Shown one piece after another: positions 4,864 through 50,245 of a stretch of 64,000 bases of DNA (positions are counted from its first letter, which is position 1; each line of letters begins with the position of its first letter). Position numbers and translations under genes: made by a program. This stretch comes from Natranaerofaba carboxydovora (GTDB lineage Bacteria > Bacillota > Natranaerobiia > Natranaerobiales > Natranaerofabaceae): assembly GCF_022539405.1 (NCBI RefSeq), contig NZ_CP054394.1, forward strand, positions 1,552,501 through 1,616,500, given 5' to 3'. Below the pieces are notes generated by a model. It made no database searches and was not told the DNA's origin. It saw only the letters and a list, made by a program, of their open reading frames with translations.

Positions 4864-5334
4864 TTAATCTCTCACCTCTACAATCATCTCAACTTCTACT
4901 GCAGAGTTTAATGGAAGTTCATTCACTCCTACAGCAGACCTTACATGTTTACCCTTGTCATAAAATATTTCTCCTAGCAGCTCACTTGCTCCATTCAACA
5001 CTTTGGGCTGCTCATTAAAATTATCTGAACTGCTAACATATCCAGTTACTTTTACAATCTTTTTAATCCGTTTTAAGTCACCTACTTCATCCTTGATAAC
5101 ACTTAAACAGTTTAACACACACAATTTTGCTGCTTCATAACCCTGTTCTAAGGTTAAATCTTGACCAACTTTTCCTTCATATTTCAACTTATTTCCTTCA
5201 AGGGCTATCTGTCCCGCTGTAAAAACTAAATTTCCACTTCTAATGACAGGAATATAACTTGCTACTGGTTTTGGTGGCTCAGGTAATGTGTAATTTAATT
5301 CTTTTAATCTTTTTTCAATAGTTCCCATAATCAT
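4864..5334 (-). CDS. RidA/YjgF family protein
   Basis: RidA-fold proteins hydrolyse reactive enamines and imines made by PLP enzymes, or have related roles. This one carries YIPVIRSGNLVFTAGQIALE near residue 30 and VRSAVGVNELPLNSAVEVEM near the C-terminus, matching the family core. At about 156 aa it belongs to the longer RidA-like subgroup. The AGGAGG at 5339-5344 points to ATG 5334 (or ATG 5328). The frame extends upstream into a dispersed repeat (5360-5579), and those extra codons are element sequence rather than coding. Any promoter must lie within or beyond the element. Confidence 0.85.
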   Translation of the reverse strand: MIMGTIEKRLKELNYTLPEPPKPVASYIPVIRSGNLVFTAGQIALEGNKLKYEGKVGQDLTLEQGYEAAKLCVLNCLSVIKDEVGDLKRIKKIVKVTGYVSSSDNFNEQPKVLNGASELLGEIFYDKGKHVRSAVGVNELPLNSAVEVEMIVEVRD

Positions 5335-44427: not shown

Positions 44428-44456
44428 TAATTTCACCTCATTAGTGAAGCTTTATT

Positions 44457-45314
44457 TTATTCTTTTCGCTCCACCAGCTTATGATTTAATACGTCACAAA
44501 AACTTCTTTTGTTAAATTTCACTAATTTTGTAACATGTTCTGAATTCCTTATTATTACTTCATCCCCATCCTGCAAAGTAAATCCTTGCTGTCCATCAAT
44601 TGTCAAAACAACATGAGCGTAATTTGTATTTACTTTGACATCAATCTTTTCCTTAGGTGATACTACAACAGAACGACCATGCAAAATATGTGGACATATA
44701 GGTGTTACTAATATTGCATCAAGGTCCGGATTTATAACAGGGCCTCCTGCGGATAAAGAATATCCTGTAGAACCAGTTGAAGTTGCTACTATTAATCCAT
44801 CCCCCGGATACTTTTCAAGGTAGCTATCATTTATGTATGTCTCAAGTTCTATTAATTTAGAAAAAGGTCCTTTTGAGATTACAATATCATTTAGAGCAAT
44901 AAATTTACATAACTTGTTATTATTTCTCACTACACTTGTTTCTAACATTACTCTTTCTTTTATTTCAAAATTATCTTTTACTATATCATCTATGTAACCA
45001 TTAACTTCGCCTATTTCTATTTCAGTTAAAAAACCAACCTTCCCCACATTTATCCCAAGAATTGGTATGTCATACTTTGCATAATCTCTAGCAACTTTTA
45101 GAAGTGTCCCATCTCCACCTAATACTATTAAAAGCTCAGCATGTTCTGCAATCACATCTGGTTTTGCTCCAGCTTTTTCATTTCCTATAGCTTTAGCAGC
45201 TTCACATGTCAAATATATTTCAAGGTTGTGCTTAAAAAATTTTTCGTATAATTCTCTTGTTATTTCTAAAGCCTTCTCTTTTTTCATGTTTGGAATAAGT
45301 CCTATTCTTTTCAT
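44457..45314 (-). CDS. nadK: NAD kinase
   Basis: Phosphorylates NAD to NADP. The 285-aa protein has LLIVLGGDGTLLKVARDYAK with the catalytic Asp of GGDG, ALNDIVISKGPFSKLIELE, and the glycine-rich VATSTGSTGYSLSAGGPVI. The ATG follows GGGAGG by six bases. Placed between tlyA and recN, as in many Clostridia, it is probably co-transcribed with them. Confidence 0.96.
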   Translation of the reverse strand: MKRIGLIPNMKKEKALEITRELYEKFFKHNLEIYLTCEAAKAIGNEKAGAKPDVIAEHAELLIVLGGDGTLLKVARDYAKYDIPILGINVGKVGFLTEIEIGEVNGYIDDIVKDNFEIKERVMLETSVVRNNNKLCKFIALNDIVISKGPFSKLIELETYINDSYLEKYPGDGLIVATSTGSTGYSLSAGGPVINPDLDAILVTPICPHILHGRSVVVSPKEKIDVKVNTNYAHVVLTIDGQQGFTLQDGDEVIIRNSEHVTKLVKFNKRSFCDVLNHKLVERKE

Positions 45315-45351: not shown

Positions 45352-46191
45352 TTATAATTTTATATTAGCAGAATAAACAACATCGTTGACAATCTTTGAT
45401 ACTTCAAGGGTCATATCTTTTACTGTAACAGTTTTAGATAATTCTTCAAAATATGCTAAATATTCAATGTTTCCCTTTGGGCCTTTTATTGGTGAATAAG
45501 TTAATCCTCTTAATACAAATTCATGCTCTTGCGCTTTATAGATTACTTTTTTAATCGCTTCTTTATGAAAATTAGGGTCTTTCACTACACCTTTTTTACC
45601 TATTTTATCGCGACTCAATTCAAATTGAGGCTTAATCAACACAATTGAAGTCTTAGGGTAAACAATAAAATCTTTAAGTTTAGGTATCACTAAATCAAGG
45701 GAGATAAATGAAACGTCAACACACGCTAAGTCAGGGGCTGCTGTAAATAAATCTTTTTCAACATATCTAATATTTGTCCTTTCAAATACACTAACTCTTT
45801 GGTCCTGTCTAAGCTGCCAAGCTAATTGTCCATAACCTACATCTACTGCATAAACATGCCTTGCTCCATTTATTAAAAGACAGTGTGTAAAACCACCTGT
45901 TGAAGCACCAATATCTAAGCACACCCTATTATTTACATCTATCTCAAAACTTTGCAGCGCTTTTTCTAGTTTAAGCCCACCTCTACTAACATATCTTTCG
46001 GAAGCTTTCTCTTTTATTTCAATAGGTAGATCGTCTCTGATTTTTGTCCCCGGTTTGTCAATTCTCTCACCATCTATAAAAACTACGCCTGACATTATCA
46101 GTCTCTTTGCCTTTTCCCTTGTAAGACTGTAATTTTTATCTACTAAAATTTGATCCAACCTTTTTTTATTTGCATAACCCAATCTTTTCAC
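45352..46191 (-). CDS. tlyA: TlyA family 2'-O-ribose rRNA methyltransferase
   Basis: Methylates ribose in rRNA (16S and/or 23S). The 279-aa protein has an N-terminal S4 domain (LDQILVDKNYSLTREKAKRL) and an FtsJ-like Rossmann domain with the SAM motif VCLDIGASTGGFTHCLL; VDVSFISLDLVIPKLK and VLIKPQFELSRDKIG carry the Lys-Asp-Lys-Glu-type residues. GTG 46191 overlaps the dxs end by 26 bases; a TTG four codons later, with GGGGTGA ahead of it, is the other possible start. Confidence 0.93.
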   Translation of the reverse strand: MKRLGYANKKRLDQILVDKNYSLTREKAKRLIMSGVVFIDGERIDKPGTKIRDDLPIEIKEKASERYVSRGGLKLEKALQSFEIDVNNRVCLDIGASTGGFTHCLLINGARHVYAVDVGYGQLAWQLRQDQRVSVFERTNIRYVEKDLFTAAPDLACVDVSFISLDLVIPKLKDFIVYPKTSIVLIKPQFELSRDKIGKKGVVKDPNFHKEAIKKVIYKAQEHEFVLRGLTYSPIKGPKGNIEYLAYFEELSKTVTVKDMTLEVSKIVNDVVYSANIKL

Positions 46192-48067
46192 CCCGGTTTT
46201 TCTTTAATATTTTGGCAGTGATTTTGTCCGGGGAAAGTCCGTATTTGTCTAAAATTGCGTTTCTATCACCATGTTCCACAAATTTATCATTTATCCCAAA
46301 CCTAACAACCAACTTGTCCGCTAGACCATATTCTGATAACAATTCTAATACACCACTTCCAAAACCGCCAACTAAACTATTTTCTTCTAAAGTATACAGT
46401 TCATTATGCGATTTTGCCAGATTTATAATATTATTTTCATCAAGTGGTTTAACAAATCGAGCATTAAATAAAGTTGCATTAACACCCTTTTCATTTAATT
46501 TTTCTAAAACTTGTTCACCAATTTTGACCATAGAACCCACACAAATAAGCGCAACATTTTTTCCTTTTTTTATAATTTCGCCTTTACCAATTTCTAATTT
46601 TTCAATACTTTCGTCGATATTAACTCCTTCTCCTTTACCTTTTGGATATCTAATAGCTACCGGCTTATCTATTGTAAATGCAGTCGAAAGCATCGTTTTT
46701 AGTTCTTTTTCATCTTTTGGAGCCATAATTATAATATTTGGTATAGTCCTCAAATAAGAAAGATCAAACAAACCCTGATGAGTCTCACCATCTCCACCAA
46801 CAATACCTGCACGGTCAATAGCGAAAGTGACCGGCAGCTTTTGCAGGCAAACATCGTGGACAATTTGGTCATAGGCTCTTTGCAAAAAAGTAGAATATAT
46901 AGCTACAACTGGTCTATATCCACCCTTTGCAAGTCCGGCAGCAAAAGTAACCGCATGCTGTTCTGCAATGCCAACATCAAAAAAGCGCCTGGGATATTTT
47001 TCCTTAAATTTATCCAGGCCAGTGCCAGAGCACATAGCAGCAGTTATAGCTAAAAGATTATTATTTTTTTCAGCAAGTTCAGTCATAACATCGCCAAAAA
47101 CTTTAGAATATGTTGGAGGTTCATTATCAGAAGACTTTTTTAGATCGCCTGTATCTTTATCAAATGGACCTACTCCATGAAATAGGTCTGGTTCGTTCTC
47201 TGCAGGCAAGTATCCTTTACCTTTTTTTGTTACTACATGGACTAATACTGGACCACGAGTTGCTTTCGCATTCTTTAACATCTGCTTCAATGTGGTTATA
47301 TTATGTCCATCTACTGGCCCAAGATAAGTAAAACCAAGCTCTTCAAACAACAAACCGGATACAAGAAGGTATTTCAGGGTATCCTTAACCCTTTCAATAG
47401 ATTTTACCATCTTACCACCAATCGCCGGGATCCTTTTTAATATAAATTCTAAATCTTCCTTCACCCTTTGATATTTAGGATCGGTCCTAATTCGCGTCAA
47501 ATAAGAAGACATAGCTCCAACATTTTCACCTATTGACATCTCATTGTCATTTAAAATCACTTTAATATCGGTTTTTTCATGACCTGCCTGGTTCAATGCT
47601 TCAAAAGCCATTCCTCCAGTAAGAGCGCCGTCTCCTATCACACTGATAATTTTCTCATTACCACCAGACAAGTCACGGGCCTTACACAACCCAAGAGCAG
47701 CAGAAATTGATGTGCTACTGTGACCAGTCTTAAATGCATCATACTGGCTTTCTTCAGGATTTGGAAAAGCACTAATACCTCCAAATTGCCTTATGCTAGA
47801 CATTTCATTTAATCTTCCGGTAAGCATCTTATGTACATATGCTTGATGCCCTACATCCCAGATAAACTTATCTTCCTCTAAAGAAAAAACATTATAAAGA
47901 CTTAACGTAAGTTCAACAACACCCAAGTTTGGTGCCAAATGTCCCCCAATTCCAGAAAGATTAACAATTAAATTTTCTCTTATTTCATCCGCTAATTGCT
48001 GCAGCTCATTAGTTTCTAAATTTTTCAAATCACCAGGCAAGCTTAAATTATTTAATAAATTTTCCAT
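46166..48067 (-). CDS. dxs: 1-deoxy-D-xylulose-5-phosphate synthase
   Basis: The first enzyme of the MEP isoprenoid pathway; joins pyruvate and glyceraldehyde-3-phosphate using TPP. The 633-aa protein has GIGGHLAPNLGVVELTLSLY, FKTGHSSTSISAALGL, the TPP motif VIGDGALTGGMAFEALNQAG with a paired N, and the catalytic IAEQHAVTFAAGLAKGG. It lies just downstream of oapA and OLE RNA, and ispA is on the other side, so isoprenoid genes flank the RNA on both sides, as known for OLE loci. Confidence 0.97.
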   Translation of the reverse strand: MENLLNNLSLPGDLKNLETNELQQLADEIRENLIVNLSGIGGHLAPNLGVVELTLSLYNVFSLEEDKFIWDVGHQAYVHKMLTGRLNEMSSIRQFGGISAFPNPEESQYDAFKTGHSSTSISAALGLCKARDLSGGNEKIISVIGDGALTGGMAFEALNQAGHEKTDIKVILNDNEMSIGENVGAMSSYLTRIRTDPKYQRVKEDLEFILKRIPAIGGKMVKSIERVKDTLKYLLVSGLLFEELGFTYLGPVDGHNITTLKQMLKNAKATRGPVLVHVVTKKGKGYLPAENEPDLFHGVGPFDKDTGDLKKSSDNEPPTYSKVFGDVMTELAEKNNNLLAITAAMCSGTGLDKFKEKYPRRFFDVGIAEQHAVTFAAGLAKGGYRPVVAIYSTFLQRAYDQIVHDVCLQKLPVTFAIDRAGIVGGDGETHQGLFDLSYLRTIPNIIIMAPKDEKELKTMLSTAFTIDKPVAIRYPKGKGEGVNIDESIEKLEIGKGEIIKKGKNVALICVGSMVKIGEQVLEKLNEKGVNATLFNARFVKPLDENNIINLAKSHNELYTLEENSLVGGFGSGVLELLSEYGLADKLVVRFGINDKFVEHGDRNAILDKYGLSPDKITAKILKKNRGEKIGLCK

Positions 48068-48078
48068 AACTTTTTACC

Positions 48079-48666
48079 TCACTTTCTACTTCTAAAGGGG
48101 GCTTTATTAGGAACTAAAGACAAAAAGTCATCTATCCTTGTCAGTATTTTCCCTACATAAAAAATAACCTCTGTACCAAAAGTAACAGCTATATATTTCC
48201 CAAGAGCTTTTCCTCCAACTGTCAGTGAAGAAACAAGAGCTGTTAATATTATATTTAAAGTAGTTGTACCTGCAAATTCCTGCAGGACAATCATTCTCAT
48301 AACCAAAATCGCAGTAATTGAACCTGTAGCAATCCCTGCGATATCACCTATTACATCGGCACAAAAACTAGCCACCTGATCTCTATTTTTAACAAGCTTT
48401 ACTGCTTTTTTAGCACCATATACTTTATTTGCAGCTCTAGCATTTAAGTTTGATTCCACTGCAGAAGTGGCAGATATTCCAATTAAATCAAATACTATAC
48501 CTATCATAATTACCAAAAATAATACAGCTACGTTGACAATTATTGACTCAACTTGACCAAGTATAATTTGTGTAATAATGCTAAACCCTATAGCTAACAC
48601 AAAAGTCCATATACTAATATATATAGCCCATTTTTTTATATAATTTTTTTTATTATTATTTCCCAA
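48079..48666 (-). CDS. oapA: OLE-associated membrane protein OapA
   Basis: A membrane protein of about 195 aa with four hydrophobic segments (YISIWTFVLAIGFSIITQIIL, IVNVAVLFLVIMIGIVFDLIG, FCADVIGDIAGIATGSITAI, ILTALVSSLTVGGKALG). Position and topology match OapA, which binds OLE RNA and brings it to the membrane. Between segments is a basic loop (NARAANKVYGAKKAVKLVKNR) suited to RNA contact. The open frame runs to 48768, inside the RNA, but TTG 48666 follows GAGGTG by six bases, just past the RNA 3' stem, so it is the likely start. Confidence 0.88.
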   Translation of the reverse strand: MGNNNKKNYIKKWAIYISIWTFVLAIGFSIITQIILGQVESIIVNVAVLFLVIMIGIVFDLIGISATSAVESNLNARAANKVYGAKKAVKLVKNRDQVASFCADVIGDIAGIATGSITAILVMRMIVLQEFAGTTTLNIILTALVSSLTVGGKALGKYIAVTFGTEVIFYVGKILTRIDDFLSLVPNKAPFRSRK

Positions 48667-48689
48667 AACATTCACCTCATGACAAACAA

Positions 48690-49310
48690 AACCATTGGGC
48701 GAATGGGACGGTAGTGAACCAAGTAAATGTTGTGGCTTAAGGTCTGGTAGGTTTTCCCAGAAAGCCAACCTCCCGTTTCCGAGAGAGGCGGTTTCCCTTT
48801 AATGGCTTCTCCATCTTTTGATGGCACCAGATCACCACTTAGTCCACACTTCAATCCCTGATTCACTTCCCTAGATGATAGGGAACAGCCTAGGAGCTTT
48901 CCTCAGGTAGGCATTGCCCATCTCCTAGCCTCTTTTGCAGTAACGGTTTCAAGTCACTGCTATACAGCCTAGGCGCCTTTCTCGGCTATATAGCATTATG
49001 AACTATCCGCCGCTACCACTCAAGGCAGGCTACGCTACACGCAGCTGATCACCACATGTAGGTTTCCCTCAGGTCGTAAATTGCACCCGGAAAAATTCAA
49101 TCTACGAACCCTGAGTCTCCACGAAGGCAGGGACGCGCCCTACATGCCTTTGTAGACCGCCCTACCTTCTTAACCCCCAGCATCGACCCCGGGCTGGGCG
49201 CCTAAAGCCGACACCAGAGACTTCATCGATGTGCCCTTTAGCGGATTTTTAGGCCCGCCTTCGGAGATGGGATGACCCACTAGGATACTGCACCGTCCAT
49301 CGCCCACTGT
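48690..49310 (-). ncRNA. ole: OLE RNA (ornate, large, extremophilic)
   Basis: A GC-richer, non-coding block of about 620 bases lies between ispA and oapA-dxs, exactly the known OLE setting, and matches the usual size of about 600 nt. The ends pair: TGGGCGATGGACGGT at the 5' side (near 49292-49306) is complementary, with a bulge, to ACCGTCCCATTCGCCCA at the 3' side (near 48696-48712). Many internal inverted repeats are visible, for example GCCTAGGCTGTATAGC with GCTATATAGCCGAG, and CCTAGG stems. OLE RNA forms a membrane ribonucleoprotein with OapA; links to alcohol, cold and magnesium stress are reported for Bacillus halodurans. The identification rests on context, size and fold, not on a covariance search. 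Confidence 0.9.
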
Positions 49311-49317
49311 CACCTTA

Positions 49318-49323
49318 ATTATA
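49318..49323 (-). promoter_or_regulatory. Candidate -10 box for OLE RNA
   Basis: A perfect TATAAT on the minus strand lies about eight bases before the predicted RNA 5' end. The sequence 17 bases upstream (TTTCCC) is a poor -35. A separate promoter would let the RNA be made apart from the folD-ispA operon. Confidence 0.35.
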
Positions 49324-49351: not shown

Positions 49352-50245
49352 TTAATAATCCCTATTGATTAAAAACTTAGTAAGTTCTTTTAATATATTG
49401 GCTTTATCACCATAATAACTGAGTTCCTCCAAAGCTTTTTCAAGCATTATGTTTGCTTCTTTTTTAGAATTTTGTAACCCAAAAACTCTAGGAAAAGTAG
49501 CTTTATCTATATCTTCATCCTGACCAATTTTCTTTCCTATTTTCTCTTCTTCTCCTATTACATCTAATATATCATCTACTATTTGAAATCCAAGACCTAC
49601 GTACTGAGAAAACCTCGATAATCTTTCAATGTCATCTTTTTTTGCTAATGCCAAAATCGCACCTGCTTTTATAGATGCACTAAGCAGTTTTCCAGTTTTG
49701 TTATTATGTATATACAATAATGTATTTTCGTCAATTTCTTTGCCTTCCATATCCAGGTCTACTACCTGCCCACCAATCATTCCATTAGTCCCAATTGCAT
49801 CAGAAATTTCTTTAGCAGATCTTAAATAAACTTCTCTATCCAAGTTTCCTTCAAGCCCCTGCTGCAGCATTATTTCATAAGCTCTATTTAAGAGCCCGTC
49901 TCCTGTCAAAATAGCGTTTGCTTCTCCAAAAACTTTATGATTAGTCGCTTTCCCTCTTCTTAGATCATCATTATCTAAAGCAGGCAAATCATCATGAACT
50001 AAAGAATATGTGTGAATCAACTCCACCGCACAAGCATAAGGCATCATTTCATCCAGGTCACCATCAAATAATTCACCAGCAGCTAACATCAAAATTGGCC
50101 TTAACCTTTTTCCCCCGGCAAACACACTATAATGCATACTTTCATGAATTACAGTAGGAAATTTATTTTGTGGAGGGAGATAATCTGCTAAATTTTTTTC
50201 TATCAATTCTGCTTTTTCTTGTAAATAGGCCTCTACATTAACCAA
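49352..50245 (-). CDS. ispA: Farnesyl/geranyl diphosphate synthase
   Basis: Condenses isopentenyl diphosphate with allylic diphosphates to C10-C15 prenyl chains. The 297-aa protein has the first Asp-rich motif in SLVHDDLPALDNDDLRRGK and the second in LGFQIVDDILDVIGEEE, with GGKRLRPILMLAAGE upstream. Residues before the first DDxxD suggest a C15 product, which is inference. TTG 50245 follows GGAGG by nine bases and is two bases from the xseB stop. Confidence 0.95.
   Translation of the reverse strand: MVNVEAYLQEKAELIEKNLADYLPPQNKFPTVIHESMHYSVFAGGKRLRPILMLAAGELFDGDLDEMMPYACAVELIHTYSLVHDDLPALDNDDLRRGKATNHKVFGEANAILTGDGLLNRAYEIMLQQGLEGNLDREVYLRSAKEISDAIGTNGMIGGQVVDLDMEGKEIDENTLLYIHNNKTGKLLSASIKAGAILALAKKDDIERLSRFSQYVGLGFQIVDDILDVIGEEEKIGKKIGQDEDIDKATFPRVFGLQNSKKEANIMLEKALEELSYYGDKANILKELTKFLINRDY

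Follow-up and report, generated by a model that had tools for sequence, protein, structure and literature searches.

The OLE RNA of Natranaerofaba carboxydovora is probably part of a functional membrane ribonucleoprotein with OapA, and likely OapC, that has lost OapB, and the tip of its P13 hairpin has changed from GYRA to GAAA, most likely through a lost constraint. The OLE class is well studied, with thousands of members known, and its RNA ranks among the largest structured RNAs of bacteria that lack an assigned biochemical function. The locus described here is an ordinary member of this class, and earlier work (PMC11332333) has covered OLE and OapA, the way the two occur together, the operon, the patchy occurrence of OapB and the disappearance of its binding site from variant 1 RNAs. 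What appears to be new, judged from sequence comparison, is a modest but testable detail, the joint loss of OapB and of its binding site; outside the two main OapB-OLE papers, we found no account in the literature of a GYRA to GAAA switch in P13 of a full-length OLE RNA that lacks OapB. The host had been described as apparently anaerobic in the initial annotation of this DNA; it is probably an anaerobic member of the Natranaerobiales, and Natranaerofaba is a haloalkaliphilic, CO-using anaerobe (PMC12835891).

A full-length OLE RNA with a covarying terminal helix

We searched the window, the whole 64-kb stretch of DNA under analysis, with covariance models. The Rfam OLE model RF01071 matched the minus strand at 471.6 bits (E 2.8e-135; gathering score 50) over model positions 1-616 of 616, and it was the sole Rfam family above threshold within the window. 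Across the whole 3.26-Mb, single-contig genome there was a single OLE match. The coordinates of the features are collected in Table 1. This copy forms standard pairs at 149 of the 159 consensus pairs of the model, with 6 broken and 4 gapped, and 54 model pairs differ from the consensus at both sides with pairing kept, whereas sliding one partner by 1-3 positions as a control left 36-46% pairing. The initial annotation had called the region a structured non-coding RNA of about 620 bases, named it OLE and suggested the Rfam model on the minus strand as a check; the strong match from one end of the model to the other and the conserved pairs bear this out. OLE was carried by 284 of 398 sampled genomes of the phylum, and by all three genomes, from two families, in our sample of the Natranaerobiales.

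Table 1. Features of the OLE locus, all positions given in the window
Feature	Position	Strand	Basis
OLE RNA, full length, 621 nt	48692..49312	-	RF01071 covariance match
P13 hairpin tip of OLE RNA; GAAA loop 48776-48779, closed by G48780-C48775	48769..48786	-	RF01071 alignment
Shortened P12.2 hairpin with an AAAA loop in place of GGNRAC	48811..48824	-	RF01071 alignment
oapA, 195 aa, TTG start, stop included	48079..48666	-	ORF and ribosome-binding site, homologues, CNNM-like fold
ispA (polyprenyl synthetase), upstream neighbour of OLE	49352..50245	-	Pfam PF00348, E 1e-58
dxs, downstream neighbour	46166..48067	-	Pfam PF13292, E 6e-118

In the ORF list of the window, no ORF of at least 60 aa crosses the OLE RNA; the only frames that overlap its 3' end are one of 64 aa and a version of the OapA frame extended at its 5' side. 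A TATAAT lies a few bases ahead of the OLE 5' end, and the promoter scan listed no site immediately upstream of OLE. A terminator-like match at 48786-48769 was set aside, being the P13 hairpin of OLE. The complete OLE ribonucleoprotein of the Halalkalibacterium halodurans type includes a bS21 partner and an anti-Shine-Dalgarno mimic in P6, and the 3' strand of P6 in the RF01071 alignment of this copy reads UCCCUGCCUUC.

The RF01071 consensus structure leaves both ends of OLE unpaired. In this copy the ends pair (GGGCGATGGACGG with CCGTCCCATTCGCCC), and the end segments have a duplex energy of about -29 kcal/mol. Among 133 distinct OLE loci, pairing at positions 2-8 of this terminal helix was above that in all 200 swaps of ends between loci; the seven positions beside the conserved GG/CC were paired in 70-98% of the loci, compared with a mean of 43-92% after end swaps, and up to six pair types occurred per position. 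Because pairing exceeds every end swap and several pair types are found, we conclude that the terminal helix, already noticed in this copy by the initial annotation, is a real, covarying element. It may correspond to P1 in the published OLE drawings, and the Rfam OLE model would gain from adding this helix, which is missing in its consensus structure.

OapA and the gene neighborhood

The setting is an isoprenoid and DNA-repair gene cluster, in which ispA is followed by the OLE RNA, by oapA 25 nt downstream of OLE, and by dxs directly after the end of oapA. OLE and OapA had been placed between ispA and dxs and recognized as the known OLE-OapA setting, and this reading stands with a full-length RNA, an adjacent oapA and two flanking genes confirmed by Pfam. 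Elsewhere in the cluster, a NAD kinase-like ORF lies at 44436-45314, between the FtsJ/S4 gene and recN, and the window ORF list holds no argR-like ORF between those two genes; ArgR has been reported as a candidate partner of OLE.

The oapA frame starts with the TTG at 48666, with GAGGTGA upstream, and homologues of OapA adjoin OLE in most relatives. In a 16-row alignment of homologues, D60, D104 and D108 are invariant. OapA proteins are recognised as membrane proteins of about 190-200 aa that share a conserved DxxxD and a weak likeness to CNNM, and this protein of 195 aa agrees with that description. By our reading of the alignment, the DxxxD formed by D104 and D108 would correspond to D100/D104 of H. 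halodurans, which are the residues mutated in the PM1 protein (PMC9723947). No Pfam or NCBIfam model matched OapA above its cut-off, and against Pfam CNNM the protein reached 14.5 bits, below the cut-off of 28.4. In the AlphaFold model (pLDDT 85), four long helices are interspersed with short ones and followed by another helix at the C terminus; this arrangement, together with the OLE-adjacent homologues, agrees with the earlier description of a four-helix membrane protein, OapA. The only sensible PDB matches of the model were CNNM transmembrane domains, MtCorB 7m1t (TM-score 0.52-0.60) and CorC 7cff (0.52), with weak E-values of 0.018-0.65. The predicted structure resembles the transmembrane domain of the CNNM/CorC Mg2+ transporters (MpfA, MtCorB), in agreement with the published relation of OapA and MpfA (PMC11332333); unlike these transporters, OapA lacks both the CBS and the CorC domain. 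A Pfam CNNM search of the genome found no CNNM/MpfA protein, save the weak match to OapA itself, and this absence of MpfA fits the published OLE-MpfA anticorrelation.

The arrangement varies among relatives. In one genome of the same order (G001), OLE lies outside the isoprenoid cluster, in which oapA is kept between a DUF212-like gene and dxs, so that the pair (L011, G001:C2:969739-970317, and L193, G001:C2:1771636-1772145) is about 0.8 Mb apart. In family f5 (L083, L084, L086 and L090), OLE stands alone, away from oapA, with a c-di-AMP riboswitch downstream of it on the same strand, and in L083 and L086 the two RNAs are followed by a gene for an NlpC/P60-like cell-wall hydrolase. A connection of c-di-AMP with OLE function has been proposed. 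The idea that OLE occurs without OapA in relatives having a non-adjacent pair was rejected, since OapA is found elsewhere in those genomes.

OapC is present and OapB was not found

The search for oapB and oapC elsewhere in the genome, suggested by the initial annotation, succeeded for oapC and failed for oapB. OapC is present as an L7Ae-family ORF between rpoC and rpsL; an in-frame TAG in oapC was merely its own stop codon. OapB was not found in this genome by two profiles. The first, made from the solved H. halodurans protein (7k9b) and two further sequences, had matches in 318 of 398 phylum genomes, among them the other two genomes of the order. The second, 18 rows built from the matches of the first, gave nothing up to E 10 in this genome. 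Two Pfam KOW proteins are present, and by place and size these are L24 and NusG. In the sister genome G001, oapB sits between map and infA; here (L010) map ends at 4992 and infA starts at 5002, and the place of oapB is empty. We conclude that oapB was probably lost in this lineage. A small protein of variable sequence can escape profile searches, and a highly diverged OapB might have co-evolved with the GAAA tip, but we consider this very unlikely given the silence of the 18-row profile, the empty place between map and infA, which is conserved, and the clear matches in sister genomes.

The loss of OapB and the shortened P12.2 might also be taken to mean that the OLE gene is decaying and non-functional. 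This is hardly credible, however, for an RNA with so many intact and compensated pairs and a strong terminal helix, next to an intact OapA and in a genome that keeps OapC. A truly decaying pair differs: in G015 (L095, L208 and L209), where the OLE-oapA pair looks to be decaying, a weak OLE match of 169.9 bits lies beside an oapA cut by stops into two pieces.

The P13 tip is associated with OapB status across genomes

The binding site of OapB comprises the P13 stem-loop together with part of P12.2 (PMC12265935, PMC12054373). We read P13 loops from a covariance-model alignment of the P12.2-P13 region that comprised 146 OLE RNAs from the phylum and a further 80 from named genomes, with six identical segments common to both sets; 195 aligned OLE RNAs with usable sequence and OapB status formed the tally set. 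The tip was G[GYRA]C in 170 of 171 OapB-positive RNAs, the sole exception being A[GCGA]U, and other than G[GYRA]C in 17 of 24 OapB-negative ones, G[GYRA]C being found in the other 7. The tip G[GAAA]C without OapB is shared by this genome and families f5 and f94, and GAAA has been fixed in two separate lineages, one being this genome and the other f5 with f94. Family f108, also OapB-negative, has C[GAAA]G or C[GUAA]G, and A[GUAA]U is found in five OapB-negative RNAs that resemble the published shortened variants. The OapB-negative set also holds an OLE-OapA pair with a C[UAAG]G tip and no detectable OapB (L283) on contig JAGYOJ010000044.1 of a 1.6-Mb MAG named Actinomycetota.

Loss of the P12.2 loop was considered as a mark of OapB loss and rejected, because 11 OapB-positive genomes lack that loop motif. 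The P12.2 loop varies freely in OapB-positive genomes, the motif being absent in these 11 and GGAAAC in 4. The shortening of P12.2 seen in this copy has no tie to the missing OapB.

To take kinship into account, a FastTree tree was built from the OLE RNA upstream of the P12.2-P13 region; some of its joins involve long branches. Five of the six losses of the canonical tip fell on OapB-negative branches, which make up 16.5% of the tree length (binomial p ~6e-4, post hoc). A stricter independent-pairs test was underpowered, as just 2-3 pairs were informative; each of these pointed in the expected direction. One clade behind the association is that of the already known shortened variants, and there were about five events in total. 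The association between OapB absence and P13 tip change is strong in counts and moderate once kinship is taken into account.

These data bear on the possibility that this is an ordinary OLE-OapA locus whose missing OapB and changed P13 are unrelated drift. The small number of independent events and the lack of significance in the pairs test are consistent with it, as are six full-length OapB-negative genomes that keep GYRA, although these mostly have OapB-bearing close relatives and may represent missed genes or recent losses. Even so, we hold unrelated drift to be unlikely, if still worth considering, given that GYRA is nearly invariant in OapB-positive RNAs while the neighbouring P12.2 loop is free to vary there, and that the tip changes concentrate on OapB-negative branches.

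Discussion

Studies in H. halodurans and on OLE RNAs of clostridia describe an RNA that forms dimers, binds OapA and is located in the membrane. Its domain 1 is bound by OapC and bS21, and the complex helps the cell to grow when faced with cold, alcohol, Mg2+ or poor carbon sources (PMC9723947, PMC12265935, PMC12054373, PMC12286853). By analogy with the H. halodurans work, we infer a membrane location, a stress role and binding of OapA and OapC here as well. The OLE RNA and its membrane anchor OapA would form a ribonucleoprotein that aids stress survival and Mg2+ handling, and in this lineage the complex would retain OapA and OapC, without OapB. The loss of OapB may have caused the P13 change, with the tip most likely changing from GYRA to GAAA once it was no longer constrained. 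It is rather doubtful that P13 was instead rebuilt as a GAAA tetraloop that docks into an RNA receptor, located either in domain 2 or on the other RNA of the dimer, so that an RNA-RNA contact replaces the OapB clamp.

The H. halodurans ribonucleoprotein consists of OLE RNA, OapA, OapB, OapC and bS21. The present system shares with it the RNA class, the full length, an oapA directly downstream, the isoprenoid cluster, an oapC beside rpsL and the lack of MpfA, but differs in having no detectable OapB, a GAAA rather than GYRA tip on P13, and a shortened P12.2. The OLE variant 1 and variant 2 RNAs (TANB77 and RF39 clades; PMC11332333) are likewise without OapB and altered in the binding region; unlike them, this copy has the full length, including an intact P7-P9, in a 3.26-Mb genome that keeps OapC.

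In a complex without OapB, domain 2 of the OLE RNA would have to fold alone or with another helper. Attempts to determine the structure of domain 2, the part bound by OapB, have so far not succeeded, and OLE RNAs of genomes without OapB are candidates for the study of this domain without protein. A natural full-length OLE RNA that lacks OapB and bears a defined change at its site would help to separate the needs of OapB from those of the RNA.
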